From a virus: a DNA stretch of 34,573 bases. How positions within the stretch are numbered: position 1 is the first letter of the stretch; every line of letters begins with the position of its first letter. Positions 2,205-28,500 of the stretch are shown one piece after another. The position numbers and the translations under genes are program-made. The notes below the pieces were generated by a model that was not told the DNA's origin, did no database searches, and was given only the letters and a program-made list of their open reading frames with translations. The stretch spans positions 1 to 34,573 of IMG/VR virus record IMGVR_UViG_3300033146_001394, one strand, 5' to 3'.

Positions 2205-2443
2205 TACATTTTCCTCCTAGCCATATCAATCATCATACAAGCGTAGTTGATAACATCCCCACACTCTAAGATGAACTCTTCTTTTGTTTTAGCTTCGCCT
2301 AATTCCGTTACCTCACGTAGAAGCTCCTCGTGGAGCTGTTCCCGGGATTTATACTCCCAGGAACCTTTGTCTTTGTGGATAACCATTTTAGCTTTCGCAA
2401 CCGCCATACCATCTTCGTGGATTTCGTTTACTTTAGTTGTCAT
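2204..2443 (-). CDS. small MazG-like nucleotide pyrophosphohydrolase
   Basis: The 79-residue protein has the metal-binding pattern of all-alpha MazG/dUTPase-like pyrophosphohydrolases: acidic helix EELLREVTELGEA (~40-52) followed by ECGDVINYA (~60-68), matching the ExxE and ExxD pairs. It is about the size of a single MazG domain. Such enzymes hydrolyse NTPs or dNTPs to monophosphates. It sits between queC and folE with ATGA and TAATG overlaps on both sides, so it is translated as part of the preQ0 cassette. It could shape nucleotide pools during modification, but its substrate cannot be read from sequence. Confidence 0.75.
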   Translation of the reverse strand: MTTKVNEIHEDGMAVAKAKMVIHKDKGSWEYKSREQLHEELLREVTELGEAKTKEEFILECGDVINYACMMIDMARRKM

Positions 2444-3168
2444 GAGAACAAACCCCCAACAGTCCCCTTACGTGGAGGACTTACAACGAAAGGACCTACA
2501 TCTCCGCTTTCATATTTTTCGTACCCTGCAGCTCTAAGCTCACAAGCAGGACACTCACCACAACCACCACCCCAAGGGTTTCTGGTATCCATATCTCCGT
2601 TGTAACATGTCACGGTGTCTTCCACAACAAGCTCGATAATCCCTAGGTCATCGGCGAGTTGAAATGTTTGTGCTTTGTCTAGGTGCATGAGAGGTGTCTC
2701 AATACAGATGTCAGCTTCGGAGCCTGAGTTCAGGGCTTGTTCTATGATTTGGATGAAGTCAAGACGGCAGTCAGGGTATCCCGAGTAGTCCGTCTCACAC
2801 ATACCAGCTACGATTGTCTCCGCACCTATCTTCTGTGCTAGTGCGTGAGCTGTTGTCAGCATGAAGGCGTTTCTGTTAGGTACGTAAGACGCAGGGAGTC
2901 CTTCTTTGTGAGGATGTGGTTGGGTTACATCCCCTCCTGTTACCAACGCTGAATCTCCTAACTGGGAGAGGATGTCTGTTTTGAATACATGACGCTCCAC
3001 ACTTAAGGCTTTGGCTACAAGATCTCCTGTAGCCAACTCTATTAAGTGTTTCTGTCCGTAGTCAAAACTAATTGCCACCACTTCCGTAAAATGGGCTAAC
3101 GCCCAACCTAGACAAGTAACTGAATCTTGTCCTCCGCTTAGTAGCACTACTGCTTTTGTTTTCGGCAT
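2440..3168 (-). CDS. queC: 7-cyano-7-deazaguanine (preQ0) synthase QueC
   Basis: QueC turns 7-carboxy-7-deazaguanine into preQ0 using ATP and ammonia. The 242-residue product has the PP-loop SGGQDS (11-16), the substrate-region motif CETDYSGYPDCR (124-135), ETPLMHLDK (157-165), and the four zinc cysteines C188, C203, C206 and C209 (TCYNGD and CGECPAC). Length is that of canonical QueC, so this is not the GAT-QueC fusion that makes the formamidino base. The ATG is preceded by AAAGGAAA. Its stop overlaps the MazG-like start (ATGA). Confidence 0.97.
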   Translation of the reverse strand: MPKTKAVVLLSGGQDSVTCLGWALAHFTEVVAISFDYGQKHLIELATGDLVAKALSVERHVFKTDILSQLGDSALVTGGDVTQPHPHKEGLPASYVPNRNAFMLTTAHALAQKIGAETIVAGMCETDYSGYPDCRLDFIQIIEQALNSGSEADICIETPLMHLDKAQTFQLADDLGIIELVVEDTVTCYNGDMDTRNPWGGGCGECPACELRAAGYEKYESGDVGPFVVSPPRKGTVGGLFS

Positions 3169-3183: not shown

Positions 3184-3381
3184 TTAATCACACCCTGGGC
3201 AAGTTGCTAAGTTGCATCTTACACAGAGTAAATATTCTTGATCCTCTTGAGGATGAGCCGCGGGCTTTTCTGAGGTATTTGCAGATTCCGCAGAGGAGAA
3301 GGTAATACCCTCTGTAACTGCGGAATTCTCTGTTATACTCAAAGTATGAGGTGTTAAGACACTACTCTGCAGGGTAGGCAT
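3184..3381 (-). CDS. small protein with C-terminal double CxxC
   Basis: A 65-residue unrecognised protein. The first ~45 residues are Ser/Thr/Glu-rich and probably disordered; the C-terminus CVRCNLATCPGCD has the pattern C-x2-C-x5-C-x2-C, which could bind one zinc ion or an iron-sulfur cluster. The ATG lies inside the end of dpdA (20-base overlap) and has a well-spaced AAGGA, supporting that it is real. It sits between dpdA and queC, so a role as an accessory to base exchange or preQ0 synthesis is possible but unproven. Confidence 0.65.
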   Translation of the reverse strand: MPTLQSSVLTPHTLSITENSAVTEGITFSSAESANTSEKPAAHPQEDQEYLLCVRCNLATCPGCD

Positions 3382-4258
3382 GGAGTAATCCTTCTATGTA
3401 ACCTATATTGTAGGTGCTCAACGCTGACAAGGTTTCCTTGCTCTTAAAATCTACGGGCTTTGCGAACTTCTCGTGAAGGTCCGAAACAGCTACAAGAGAG
3501 TAACTAGACCATACAGCCATAGACGTATCCCAACTATAAATAGAAGGAGAGAATCGTCTAAGGCGTGCGAACTCATCCACAGTTGTAGCTCCTAACATAT
3601 GGAGCTTCTTAGTGTTGATGTCTTTCAACCAAGAGAGTACAGTAAGGAAGTCTTCACGTGCTCTAGGGTCTGCATCCGTGTACTTTCGATTTTGTAGAGC
3701 GTCATACAGGTCCACATCGCGAAGCATATCATCCGTAATGTCTGAAGGTTCTTCTACCAGTTTACGCATATACGTAACAGCATGAAGGTAAGCAATACCT
3801 ACAAAGGTAACCTTGTCATCACCCAAACCTAACATTGCTTGGGATAGCATGTCATCTCCAGCTGGTACAACCATTACATCGAAACCAGCCTCTCTTATCT
3901 TGTAAGCGTCTACAGTGTCAAACCCATCAGGTGCTACTAAGCAGTTGGCTTTAATCCGGTGTCCAGCTTCGATAAGCTCGGGAACCGTACAAGATTGACC
4001 AAGCTCAAAGGCACTGTTATCTAGATAGATGTATACGTTGGCAGGCAAAAGACCTACATGTTTTTCATACTTAGAGTTCTCTTCGCACAAGTGATGAAGG
4101 GCCATAAAAGGTCCATCATAGGCTCTTGCCATAAGAGGTATTGTATCCGTAGGTGTGATATGACATACTAAAATACCATCTTGTGTAGACGCCTCAGGTC
4201 TTATGTGTTCCTCCATTTGGTCCCTGTTTAAGGGAGTCACACTTTTACGCTTTAACAT
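3362..4258 (-). CDS. dpdA: DpdA-like DNA guanine transglycosylase
   Basis: DpdA enzymes are relatives of tRNA-guanine transglycosylase (TGT) that swap guanine in DNA for a 7-deazaguanine base. The 298-residue product retains a TGT-type barrel outline: LDNSAFELG (79-87) aligns with the TGT signature DSGGFQ and supplies candidate catalytic D80; VAPDGFD (108-114) and VVPAGD (130-135) follow; FVGIAYLH (152-159) occupies the glycine-rich region; and YSWDTSMAVW (241-250) aligns with the FDCVxPTR segment, giving candidate second Asp D244. The TGT zinc motif CxCxxC is absent; only four scattered cysteines exist (C32, C58, C90, C106). Its placement among queE, queD, queC and folE is the strongest support. 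Start ATG follows GGAGGG and overlaps queD by 14 bases. Confidence 0.85.
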   Translation of the reverse strand: MLKRKSVTPLNRDQMEEHIRPEASTQDGILVCHITPTDTIPLMARAYDGPFMALHHLCEENSKYEKHVGLLPANVYIYLDNSAFELGQSCTVPELIEAGHRIKANCLVAPDGFDTVDAYKIREAGFDVMVVPAGDDMLSQAMLGLGDDKVTFVGIAYLHAVTYMRKLVEEPSDITDDMLRDVDLYDALQNRKYTDADPRAREDFLTVLSWLKDINTKKLHMLGATTVDEFARLRRFSPSIYSWDTSMAVWSSYSLVAVSDLHEKFAKPVDFKSKETLSALSTYNIGYIEGLLHAYPAE

Positions 4259-4802
4259 TTTTCCCTCCTGTATATGTGGCTGAAGATGTAGGCGATTCTT
4301 TTATAGTTACACTAGTTAGTGTCACCCCTTTAGGTATGCTGGTTTTTACGTACTCGAACAAATGTCTTGCGATCTCCTCAGAAGTAGGAACGTAGTCCAC
4401 TACAATGAAAGACTTCAAAATATCTTGGTGAGCCAAACTCTTACCTTTAATAACAAAACCATCTTTTTGAGGATCCAAAGACTGAATCCCGTAAGCTTCC
4501 GCAGCCAGGTGACCTTCCATACCAAATGTTAGGTTGGCAAGTTCTGGGTCTTTTCTGTCTAGCATAAAGCGATGGTCGAGGTGGTTATCTATCCAAGCTT
4601 TTACGAACTTAAGGTCGGTGAAATCCATCACCATATTCTTGTCCAGCTCGTCAGCACTTAAAGCTACCACGGCCTCGTAAGAGTGGCCGTGGAGCATTTT
4701 ACATTTACATCCTGAAGAACAGCTAAGTTCAGCATCAAGTGATTGGTTGTGTACTCTGTGGCCCATAGCCCAAGAGAACTCTTTTGTTATTGTGTATGTC
4801 AT
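4245..4802 (-). CDS. queD: 6-carboxytetrahydropterin synthase QueD
   Basis: QueD converts dihydroneopterin triphosphate to 6-carboxy-5,6,7,8-tetrahydropterin, the second step toward preQ0. The 185-residue protein carries the three zinc histidines H15 (AMGHRV) and H38/H40 (CKMLHGHS), the catalytic Cys four residues before the HGH (C34), the Asp/His region NHLDHRFML (~73-81) and a C-terminal Glu in TIKES. A cluster of extra cysteines (C28, C32, C34) precedes HGH. It is longer than many QueD (about 120 residues) through insertions in the middle. The start overlaps the queE stop (TAATG). Confidence 0.95.
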   Translation of the reverse strand: MTYTITKEFSWAMGHRVHNQSLDAELSCSSGCKCKMLHGHSYEAVVALSADELDKNMVMDFTDLKFVKAWIDNHLDHRFMLDRKDPELANLTFGMEGHLAAEAYGIQSLDPQKDGFVIKGKSLAHQDILKSFIVVDYVPTSEEIARHLFEYVKTSIPKGVTLTSVTIKESPTSSATYTGGKNVKA

Positions 4803-5413
4803 TATTCGACTCCTAATATTTTATGTAATTGAACACTTAAACCAACGGAAGGCCAGCGTCTCATAAGCTCGATACAGAGTCTTAAATTAGCTTCACTGAC
4901 TTCGACTTCACTGTTGATAGGCTGGAAGAAGATCTCAGCTCCTAGTTTCTCCGCTGTACGGAGGGCTGTCTTCAAGTCCTGAGTGTTGTAACTATCATCA
5001 ATGAGAAGCTTCATAGAATCCCATCTACCTTCGGGAATCGGGTATGCTTTAGGCGAGAGACATACATGATTTGCTTCTTGTACATTTTCATAGTGAAGCC
5101 CGTTGGTCTCTACCATCACTTTAAAACCTTCATACTGAAGAAGTAGAATAAGAGGGTTCAAATCTTGAAGGCTTGGCTCCCCACCTGTGATACAAACCCA
5201 GTCTACTTTAGAATCCTGAGCTATACAAACGATGTCGTTAGCTGTAAGCTGTTCAATAGCTTCTTTGTCTTTGTGTGTAGGTTCGTCGCAGAACGTACAA
5301 GCTAAGTTACAACCGAATAAACGGATGAACTGCATGTTTTTACCTGTGTGAGTTCCCTCACCTTGGATGGAGACGAATCTATCTACTATGTTATATGAGG
5401 GGGTTTCTCTCAT
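4802..5413 (-). CDS. queE: 7-carboxy-7-deazaguanine synthase QueE
   Basis: QueE is a radical SAM enzyme that contracts carboxytetrahydropterin to 7-carboxy-7-deazaguanine. The 203-residue product has VSIQGEGTHTG (14-24), the family's substrate-side motif, and the 4Fe-4S ligating triad C35, C39, C42 in the canonical CxxxCxxC spacing (CNLACTFC). VCITGGEPSLQ near residues 72-82 is the SAM-binding GGE motif. The start overlaps the stop of the upstream phosphoribosyltransferase fusion as ATGA, so both are translationally coupled. Confidence 0.96.
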   Translation of the reverse strand: MRETPSYNIVDRFVSIQGEGTHTGKNMQFIRLFGCNLACTFCDEPTHKDKEAIEQLTANDIVCIAQDSKVDWVCITGGEPSLQDLNPLILLLQYEGFKVMVETNGLHYENVQEANHVCLSPKAYPIPEGRWDSMKLLIDDSYNTQDLKTALRTAEKLGAEIFFQPINSEVEVSEANLRLCIELMRRWPSVGLSVQLHKILGVE

Positions 5414-6722: not shown

Positions 6723-6733
6723 AAGTATCCTTC

Positions 6734-6760
6734 GTTTATCTAGTTTATCTAGTTTATCTC
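6734..6760. repeat. three tandem 9-bp repeats before a start site
   Basis: The unit gtttatcta is repeated at 6734-6742 and 6743-6751, and again with one change (final c) at 6752-6760. The array lies 12-38 bases upstream of the ATG at 6722, just ahead of the ribosome site, in the 5' untranslated leader. It could be a protein-binding operator or a translational control site. Confidence 0.75.
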
Positions 6761-6785
6761 GTAGTTGTAGTTGACCTTTTGGAAA

Positions 6786-6811
6786 TCCCACCCTCTACAA
6801 CAAGGGTGGGA
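6786..6811 (-). terminator. perfect 9-bp stem-loop in leader
   Basis: tcccaccct and agggtggga form a perfect 9-bp stem with an 8-base loop. In the minus-strand transcript the stem is followed by only three U, so it is a weak candidate for an intrinsic terminator; attenuation or RNA processing is equally possible. It lies 64 bases upstream of the start at 6722. Confidence 0.5.
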
Positions 6812-6824
6812 GGTGTGTTACGTT

Positions 6825-6942
6825 TAAGCCGGCTGTGTATGGCTTTGTAACTATATAAATGCCGGCTTAGGACGACCCCCCACTTATAGGAACTCTCTAC
6901 AATTTTTAAGGAAACATCAAGAGAGTGAGGAGCCGTCCTAAG
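6825..6942 (-). ncRNA. structured leader with two overlapping long hairpins
   Basis: Two perfect 9-bp inverted repeats occur: taagccggc (6825-6833) with gccggctta (6861-6869), and cttaggacg (6866-6874) with cgtcctaag (6934-6942). The second encloses a further actctc/gagagt pair (6892-6897 and 6921-6926). The inner arms overlap by four bases (6866-6869), so both stems cannot be fully formed together. With the stem at 6786-6811 this makes three successive structures in ~160 non-coding bases between two genes. This architecture resembles cis-regulatory RNA or a small RNA. No known riboswitch consensus, including preQ1 types, was recognised. Confidence 0.5.
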
Positions 6943-6979
6943 CCCCCTCCGAAGAAGGAACCAGGCGAATATTATTTTT

Positions 6980-7756
6980 TTACGCTTGTTCTAGGCGATA
7001 CAGCCTTCGCATCTGTTGAAGTCTTCGCATCTGTTGAAGTCTTCGCATCTGTTGAAGTCTTTGCATCTGTTGAAGTCTTCGCATCTGTTGAAGTCTTCGC
7101 ATCTGTTGAAGTTCTGTTGAAGTCTTCGCATCTGTTGAAGTCTTCGCATCTGTTGAAGTCTTTGCATCTGTTGAAGTCTTCGCATCTGTTGAAGTCTTCG
7201 CATCTGTTGAAGTCTTCGCATCTGTTGCAGCTCGTTCACGTGCCTCCTTCTCTCTTAAGGCCGCTTCCGCTTTTTTAGCTGCTTTCAGGCCACCTTCGAA
7301 GGCTACTGACTCAGCTGCGTAACCTTTAACCTCTTCACCTGCTGCGGCTGCTTTACGCTTAGCTCTGACAGCTTCCAAAGCTTTCTGTTCGACAGCTCTT
7401 TGAGCAGCAACCTTAGCGTCTCTTTCCTCTGCAGTCAACCCATTTGTACTTCCGGCTCCTGCTCTTTTCTGTGGCGCTGGTCCGTACTTGGTTAAAAGAA
7501 TCTCTGCCATTCTTGCTTGAGAACACCCAAGACCCATATCTCTCATCATTTTAAGAGCCGCATGACGTGAAATTCTCTCATCCGGAAGAAGCTCAATGAA
7601 TACTTCGTTTGAAGTCTGTACTTTCTCTTTCACTTTTGTGTCTGCTTTCACTTTTGTGTCTGCTTTCACTTTTGTGCCTGCCTGTGTTACTTTAGGCTCT
7701 TGTTTTACCGCAGCTAAACCGGTTGCTGTTGTTGTTGTTGTTTTTTTGTCTGACAT
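6980..7756 (-). CDS. Ala/Lys-rich protein with repeat tail and frame switch
   Basis: A 258-residue protein of unknown function. Residues ~25-46 hold three TKVKAD-type repeats; ~50-95 form the only compact-looking region (VFIELLPDERISRHAALKMM and AEILLTKYG), possibly a small helical domain; ~105-180 is a highly charged Ala/Lys/Glu helix; and from ~181 the chain is repeats: six TDAKTS units, then six LQQMRR-type units and the end RLYRLEQA. The change of repeat sequence is caused by one repeat unit being 7 bases short (7113-7123). Without that loss the protein would continue in TDAKTS and finish about 14 residues after the array with a basic tail (VSPRTSVKK). Start ATG at 7756 follows AAAGGATACAAAA. 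The charge pattern recalls histone H1-like proteins; function is unknown. Confidence 0.65.
   Translation of the reverse strand: MSDKKTTTTTATGLAAVKQEPKVTQAGTKVKADTKVKADTKVKEKVQTSNEVFIELLPDERISRHAALKMMRDMGLGCSQARMAEILLTKYGPAPQKRAGAGSTNGLTAEERDAKVAAQRAVEQKALEAVRAKRKAAAAGEEVKGYAAESVAFEGGLKAAKKAEAALREKEARERAATDAKTSTDAKTSTDAKTSTDAKTSTDAKTSTDAKTSTELQQMRRLQQMRRLQQMQRLQQMRRLQQMRRLQQMRRLYRLEQA
7005..7231. repeat. 18-bp tandem repeat array, 12 full and 1 partial
   Basis: The plus-strand unit cttcgcatctgttgaagt is repeated six times at 7005-7112 (unit 4 has t for c), then an 11-base remnant at 7113-7123, then six more units at 7124-7231 (unit 3 of this block has the same t variant; the last unit has two changes at its end). 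The five-unit stretches 7023-7112 and 7124-7213 are identical including the variant, which points to a block duplication. The unit has no stop codon in the three minus-strand frames, so any length change leaves a readable product. Confidence 0.95.
7631..7684. repeat. 18-bp tandem repeat, N-terminal coding
   Basis: Two identical 18-bp units start at 7631 and 7649 (cacttttgtgtctgcttt) and a third at 7667 has diverged in its second half. They encode the TKVKAD repeats near the N-terminus of the same protein that carries the larger 18-bp array. The two arrays share unit length but not sequence. Confidence 0.85.
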
Positions 7757-25564: not shown

Positions 25565-28500
25565 TTATGGTTGTTGAAAGCTCGCTCTTTCTGTAGCTTC
25601 TGTCTGTGATTCAAGTTCGCCTAAGATATCTTCCATCTTAGCGTATACATCATTGATATTTTTATCTTTATTGTTAGCTAGTTCGTCTACATATAGGTTG
25701 AACTTTGCTTGATAAGACTCTACCGTTGGGCTTGACTTATAAGCTTGTTCTGTTGCCGCTTTCAACAACTCTATATATGTAGAGTCTGATACCTCTGGGT
25801 TAGAACCTAACTCACGTAGTAGTTGCTCTGCTTCGGCCGAAGTATAAATAGAGAACCCACCGGTTATAGCATCTTTCAAAGAAGAGTTATAACTAGCCAT
25901 AATACTGTCCGCTTCTGACAAAGCCTTGTCTCTCGCATCTTGTTTCTTTTTCTCTAAAATTTCTAAATCTCTAGCCGCTTTCGCCGCCGCTTTCGCCGCC
26001 GCTTTCGCAGCTCTTTCGGCCTCTCGAGCTCCCCTATCCGCCGCTGTTTGGGCTTCTTTGGCTGCTCTTGCTCTCTGGTCTTCTGCTGTTTTGTAGTTAG
26101 CTTCCATCTCTGTGTATCTTGGAGCTAACTGTAACATAGTGATATATAATTCTTTACCTGCTTCAGTTGTAAGGTCTATACCCTCTACATACTGAGCATA
26201 AGCTGCAGCATTGGAAGGAAAAGCCACCCCAAGAGAAGAGAGTTGAGCTTGTAAAAACTCTTGTTGTTTCGCTGCTTTATCCCCGGCTTCGTAGAAGTTG
26301 TTAAAGAAGCTAGAAGTCAACGACGTAAATGTATCTATGCCTCCGGCCTCTCCAACTAGTTGCAAAGTATCGAATGCACTTAAAGCTTCCTGGTTTAAGT
26401 AGAAAAGACGTTCACTAGCCGCGCTGAACTCCCCTGCAATCCGTAACAAAGTATCCAATGTAGACTCAGATGTTAGCGCAAACTCATCAACGAAACTCTG
26501 TACTTGGGAGGACTCAGCCAATATCGTACTATAGACATCATTCGTGTAGGTTTCAATAGCTTCTTTTAACTGTTCAGCCGTCTCCTCCCCACTAAGTCTT
26601 AAGGAATCAATCCCTACTATGTCTTTTAGGTCTGACCATTCGATAGCTGTTTCCTCACCTAAGAAGTCACTGATATTGATAGTCGTCATACCTGCCGCTG
26701 CTTGGGCAAACATTTCTTGTGTAATAAACTCTACGGATTCACTCCAAGCCGCTGCTGTTGCTAAAACTGCGGTTGTGTTAACATCGAAATTAGAAGACAC
26801 AGTAGGATATGCTATCTCTAAGTCAGCCGCATCAGGGGAATAAGCCGTCAGGTTTTTAATACTATCCAACGATGACTGTAGTTGGTTTTTTATAGGAGAT
26901 AAATCTACATCTGTGATAGATAAGTCGCCTAAGGCCTTTGTTACCTCTGTCTCTATTCCTCTCATGTAACTGTCGAGTCTTTCTTTGGCATCTCCTGTGA
27001 AAGTGTGAAGAGCTCCGGCTTGTCCTGCTACCTCCGCAAATGCCGGAGCTAGTTGTAACAGTGTCAACAGCAGTTTACGTCCTTCTTCTGTAGCGCTATC
27101 TTGAGCCTCAACCAACTCCATAAAAGCGGCTTTTGTAGGAGGGACAGCCAGTTGTAAGTCTTCAAACACACCAGACACGTAGTTAGCTTTGTTTCTTTGT
27201 ATCTGGGCTTCTGTAAAGTAGGCAGCCTCATAAGCTTGAGTAAGAACGGCTAGGTTATCCAGCCCTCCTGCTTGAGCTACAAAGTCCAGTGTATTCTCTT
27301 GGCTTTGAGGCTTCAAACGAACATCTTCCAGTAACCGCGAAGCTTGTTCATACTCAAAAGCGATTCGCAACAAAGTTTCTAGTGGCTTCTCAGCCGCTGT
27401 CGCATATTGATCTACCAAATCGTTAAACACACCCAACTCACCTATAACTGCTGATAGTGAAGAGCTTAAAGCGTCTTGTATCTGTTGTTTGGCCTCTTCT
27501 GGTTCTAGTCCTTTTAACTCAACATTTAACTCTTCTAACTGGATAGTAGCCATTGCTGCTTGGAGTTGAGCTGTGCTTATACCCAAAGCCTCACCCGCTG
27601 TTAGTATTAATTCCTTACCATTACTGTAGGCTTCTGTTGTGTATTTTTGGAGACTGTCCGATACGGTTAAGATGTCTTTGTGTATGTCCGTGTCTGTGAA
27701 GACTCCCCAGAATCCACCTGACTCTGTTTTTATAGTTTGGTATCCTTGGACGATGGCCTGTTCTGTTGCTTGGGCAAAAGACTGCTGAGCTATGGTAAAG
27801 CCTGAGGCTATCAAGTCTTCGTCAAATTCAGTAAAACCGAAAAAGGTAGAGTCGCTACGTTCTTCGTAGTCGGACCCTGTTAAGTCTGTTATGAACTGAG
27901 CTTCTCCGGCTGTTCTGTAGGTGTAGTCACTTCCGCCTGTACCTCCGGCTGTTAGGGATAAAGCAATGTTATCTGCTATACGGTCGCTGGTCTCTAGGAG
28001 CTCATTTGTTCTTCTTGTTAGGCTTAGTAGAGGGTATATTGCCTCCGCGTATAAGTCGCCTAAGTTTGTTAAAGACTCATCTTTAAAGTCAACTGTACCT
28101 GTACCGTTTTTAACTGCTTTTTCTATGTCGGCGGAGGCTGTACCCCAAACACCTTGTAGAGCTGTTACAATCCAACCAAACCAAGAACCTGTACTTCCGT
28201 ACTCCCCACTTTTTGCGGACTCTAACGTGGTACTAGCTGCGGCTTTTAAGGCTTCACTTATATCGTTAGATGTTGCGTATGCATCCAAGAAGCTAGCGGC
28301 TATGTGTTTGACAGACGTTACCGTCTTATCCCACTCTTTTCTCTGGATCTCGGCCAATTGCTTCTGGAGGGTAAGTTCATGAGTTTGTTCTTTTAAAATC
28401 TTAACTCGGTTGGCGTCCGTCATTTCCAGTGTAAGGTAACCATCTTGAAGTTGACGAGAGGCAAGAATCTCTGCTTGAAGTCGTGCTTGTACGTAGTTGT

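Follow-up and report, generated by a model that had tools for sequence, protein, structure and literature searches.

An 18-bp coding repeat array with an internal change of frame in the tail of a small phage protein

A minus-strand gene in an uncultivated-virus record carries a tandem array of 18-bp units whose reading frame changes at an 11-base remnant unit, which raises the question of whether the array is a switch, a sign of gene decay or an ordinary coding repeat. The window, which comprises the whole 34,573-bp record, contains phage genes identified by profile, including those for the tape measure, major head and tail proteins, holin, endolysin, a family-A polymerase and an exonuclease.

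Layout of the repeat array

The array occupies the 3' part of its gene (Table 1). The unit-by-unit layout and TRF, which scores the array at 383 and thus far beyond chance expectation, confirm the 18-bp array and the remnant that a sequence-only reading had described. The array has the formula UUUVUU-r-UUVUU plus a last unit, in which U is the common unit, V is a variant with CTTTGC in place of CTTCGC and r is the remnant, and the variant occurs once in each array half. In translation, the repeat peptide reads TDAKTS before the remnant and LQQMRR after it, as had been proposed. The two identical blocks that had been taken as a duplication are indeed identical, and their identity bears the duplication out, but each block is 101 bp rather than 90 bp long. 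The identity ends exactly at the block boundaries. The unit is open in all three minus-strand frames, as had also been pointed out, but this is hardly noteworthy, given a chance of roughly 0.56, or (61/64)^12, for an 18-bp unit in which one frame is already open.

Past the array, the two frames other than the assembled one end in AVSPRTSVKK, with a stop just beyond the end of the ORF, or in GCIA. Every frame meets a stop within about ten codons of the array, so the protein has about the same length in any frame. The tandem units exceed 6 bp and lie in an open frame, as in an intragenic coding minisatellite. A search of IMG/VR for the unit gave no match. The RNA fold of the array is unremarkable (z -0.35).

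Table 1. Features of the window
Feature	Position	Strand	Remarks
FolE, QueC, QueD and QueE homologs (preQ0 set)	1518-2204, 2440-3168, 4245-4802, 4802-5413		By profile
Array-bearing gene	6980..7756	minus	258 aa; orthologs in L002 and L004
Unique 3' end after array	6980..7004	minus	LYRLEQA, then stop, in assembled frame
Whole 18-bp array	7005-7231 (227 bp)	minus-strand gene, 3' part	Plus-strand consensus CTTCGCATCTGTTGAAGT
Last part of array in gene direction	7005..7112	minus	Six full units; LQQMRR after shift
Two identical tandem 101-bp blocks	7012..7213 (7012-7112 = 7113-7213)	none
Remnant unit	7113..7123	minus	11 bases; shifts frame
First part of array in gene direction	7124..7231	minus	Reads TDAKTS
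Five full units	7124-7213	minus
Twelfth unit	7214-7231	minus	Imperfect
Conserved core	7307..7624	minus	Residues 45-150; predicted helical, weakly helix-turn-helix-like, without family match
N-terminal in-frame 18-bp repeat	7627..7681	minus	VKADTK, 3.1 copies

The conserved core and the gene neighbourhood

The protein consists, from the N- to the C-terminus, of a low-complexity region, a conserved core, an Ala/Lys/Glu-rich stretch and the repeat tail. Profile and neighbour searches of IMG/VR yielded two relatives, L002 and L004, both distant. Searches with the core profile found only these two, genome contigs gave nothing, and DNA and protein searches of a phage collection returned no match. 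The three genomes share the gene order polymerase, exonuclease, array-bearing gene, a conserved ~170-aa neighbour, a DUF3310-like protein and Que genes; the DUF3310 and Que names come from profile matches in the window and were extended to the relatives on the basis of gene order and visual inspection. In matched segments, the core is 55% identical to that of L002 and 61% identical to that of L004. It lies intact upstream of the array, which speaks against the earlier suggestion of a degraded gene. The tails of the relatives differ from the array tail and have a high content of T, D, K, S and P, and the proteins end in ...GDDSKPTEKTKDSKSI (L002) and ...PEDEAPKDEDTK (L004). The L002 gene contains repeats of 51 and 45 bp, both multiples of three, elsewhere in the gene, and the L004 gene contains no repeats of note. 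Any comparison of unit number is thus confined to two distant genomes with different or no repeats.

The protein has no match in Pfam or PHROG at E 0.001, only weak family matches at E up to 1 and a single sequence match in the PDB (E 0.31). The predicted structure of the full-length protein has a mean pLDDT of 61.8; that of the core, built from three sequences only, has a mean pLDDT of 70.6 and consists of three short helices followed by one long helix. Foldseek searches with the predicted models gave no significant match. The top solved structures retrieved with the core model are mostly winged-helix DNA-binding domains, headed by those of the Fur and ArgR types, and all have E >1. A DNA-binding role for the protein, near replication genes, is a guess. 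Nothing in the libraries searched matches the gene, so its conserved core is left unannotated.

The phage lineage of the array-bearing gene carries a preQ0 (7-deazaguanine) gene set. FolE, QueD, QueE and QueC make preQ0, which is used by some phages for DNA modification (PMC6884629). Of the proteins scanned, none was recognized as a DpdA-type transglycosylase, and a 298-aa protein at 3362-4258 has no Pfam match. The spacer 3' of the array gene contains an imperfect inverted repeat in the window (6723-6979), L002 (6433-6714) and L004 (6676-6866), with arms of 21, 23 and 11 nt, respectively, loops of 38-41 nt and no evident shared sequence. The RNA fold z values of these spacers are -4.6, -1.8 and -4.1, respectively, and the inverted repeat could be an RNA element, a terminator or an origin. 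A similar 9-bp repeat of the TAGATAAAC type is located just before the start of the ~170-aa neighbour in the window (6734-6759) and L002 (6676-6704). A 12-bp repeat (2.9 copies) is found within the tape measure gene (25974-26008).

Original frame and origin of the remnant

The original frame of the array is most likely TDAKTS, as suggested by codon usage, tail composition and a silent variant, each of which is modest evidence. Codon usage, expressed as log2 odds per codon against the window, is +0.22 for TDAKTS, -0.06 for FNRCED and -0.27 for LQQMRR (gene mean, +0.26), a contrast that stems from a six-codon unit only and is modest relative to the spread (sd, 0.27 in frame and 0.93 out of frame). 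The tail composition score is +0.62 for TDAKTS and -1.23 and -1.04 for the other two frames, on a yardstick that takes in the N-terminus of the same protein. The GCG to GCA variant is silent in the TDAKTS frame only, although silence in one given frame is fairly frequent by chance alone. The LQQMRR half, which is open and is predicted with confidence to be helical (block pLDDT 90-98), counts against an accidental shift of frame, although the confidence of predicted structures is often too high for simple repeats.

Two models of the array match the 209 bases at 7005-7213 letter for letter. In one, a six-unit (108-bp) in-register copy was followed by a 7-bp loss; in the other, a single out-of-register duplication of 101 bp occurred. 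The array letters fit the one-step and two-step origins equally and cannot separate them. With a probability of about 0.55, we regard the array as an ordinary intragenic minisatellite in the variable tail of a phage protein, in which the frameshift is recent or artefactual and no switch operates. The minisatellite would give a small phage protein a hydrophilic C-terminal tail that is probably disordered. Slippage in register, by whole codons, would enlarge the array, and a six-unit copy would take it from 7 units to 13. The 7-bp loss, or the equivalent out-of-register 101-bp duplication, would then generate the 11-base remnant. The remnant would shift the frame of only the last part of the tail and leave the core unaffected. 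Because every frame stops shortly past the array, the frameshift is probably nearly neutral.

Whether the remnant is present in the actual DNA molecule is a matter of inference, and the striking change of frame within the array may stem from one indel or misjoin in a metagenomic contig. It is quite possible, at appreciably less than even odds, that the real array is in register and has another number of units, and that the assembler joined its two ends out of register; the sequence-only reading had itself listed an assembly error as something to check. The source is an uncultivated-virus contig, in which such a misjoin would yield identical letters, and the array matches or exceeds the typical short-read length; tandem repeats that exceed the length of reads or k-mers are known to give rise to misassembly (PMC6868369). 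Moreover, in a small control of 81 loci (652 kb including the window, period 20-399), the array blocks are the only exact tandem duplication found that lacks excess homology; the one further exact case, in L002, shows an excess of 17 bp. The block length coincides with 101, a common Illumina read length. However, any 7-bp loss combined with the 108-bp spacing of the variant units also forces an exact run of 101, and the number is therefore weak evidence for a read-length artefact. De Bruijn assemblers, in addition, seldom generate junctions that are missing from all reads.

Readings that give the repeats a function fare worse. The repeats are unlikely to act as DNA, that is, as iterons to which the encoded protein binds, in the manner of the origin in the lambda O gene. 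They are direct repeats within a gene, and the predicted core is weakly helix-turn-helix-like by Foldseek (Fur and ArgR types, E >1), but the repeats are not conserved in the relatives, with L002 having different repeats at other gene positions and L004 none of note, and the unit does not recur elsewhere in the window, even when up to 4 mismatches are allowed. Still less probable is the phase-variable tail proposed by the sequence-only reading, in which slippage at the remnant would alternate the C-terminus. Slippage was modelled as every deletion or duplication between matching 12- or 18-base stretches in the array. In this model, slippage across the remnant would alter the tail, with deletions leading to RTSVKK and duplications to CEGCIA. 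However, gains or losses of the 18-bp unit on either side of the remnant keep the frame. Deletions that erase the remnant and restore TDAKTS account for 19 of the 37 products (14 of 28 with an 18-base match), and the remaining deletions, about half, leave the frame unchanged. The remnant is retained in none of the restoring products, so slippage would not switch the frame back. Such an array is also absent from both relatives, and the protein, whose gene sits among replication and nucleotide-metabolism genes, has no surface or receptor-binding family match. A reversible switch is not expected from the model, and a mixed population of tails is possible. A one-way ratchet, in which the basic LQQMRR helix would regularly slip to TDAKTS and the population would mix two tails that differ in binding, is the most improbable of these readings.

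Comparison with known repeat systems

Bacterial contingency loci undergo phase variation through simple sequence repeats. The phage array resembles them in its position within a coding region. Unlike at those loci, where unit gain or loss shifts the frame and switching is reversible, the unit here is a multiple of three, no frame switch accompanies a change of one unit, and the change of frame in modelled slippage is one-way. The lambda O gene contains the iterons of an origin, and these are likewise direct repeats inside a phage gene, but the repeats analysed here are not conserved in relatives, and an origin or protein binding there would be hypothetical. Intragenic tandem repeats that encode low-complexity regions in proteins of prokaryotes and phages have been surveyed (PMC6821194). 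The array shares with these repeats a short in-frame unit, a unit number that may vary and a location in the tail of a protein whose core is conserved, and it differs from them in the single remnant unit that interrupts the frame midway through the array.
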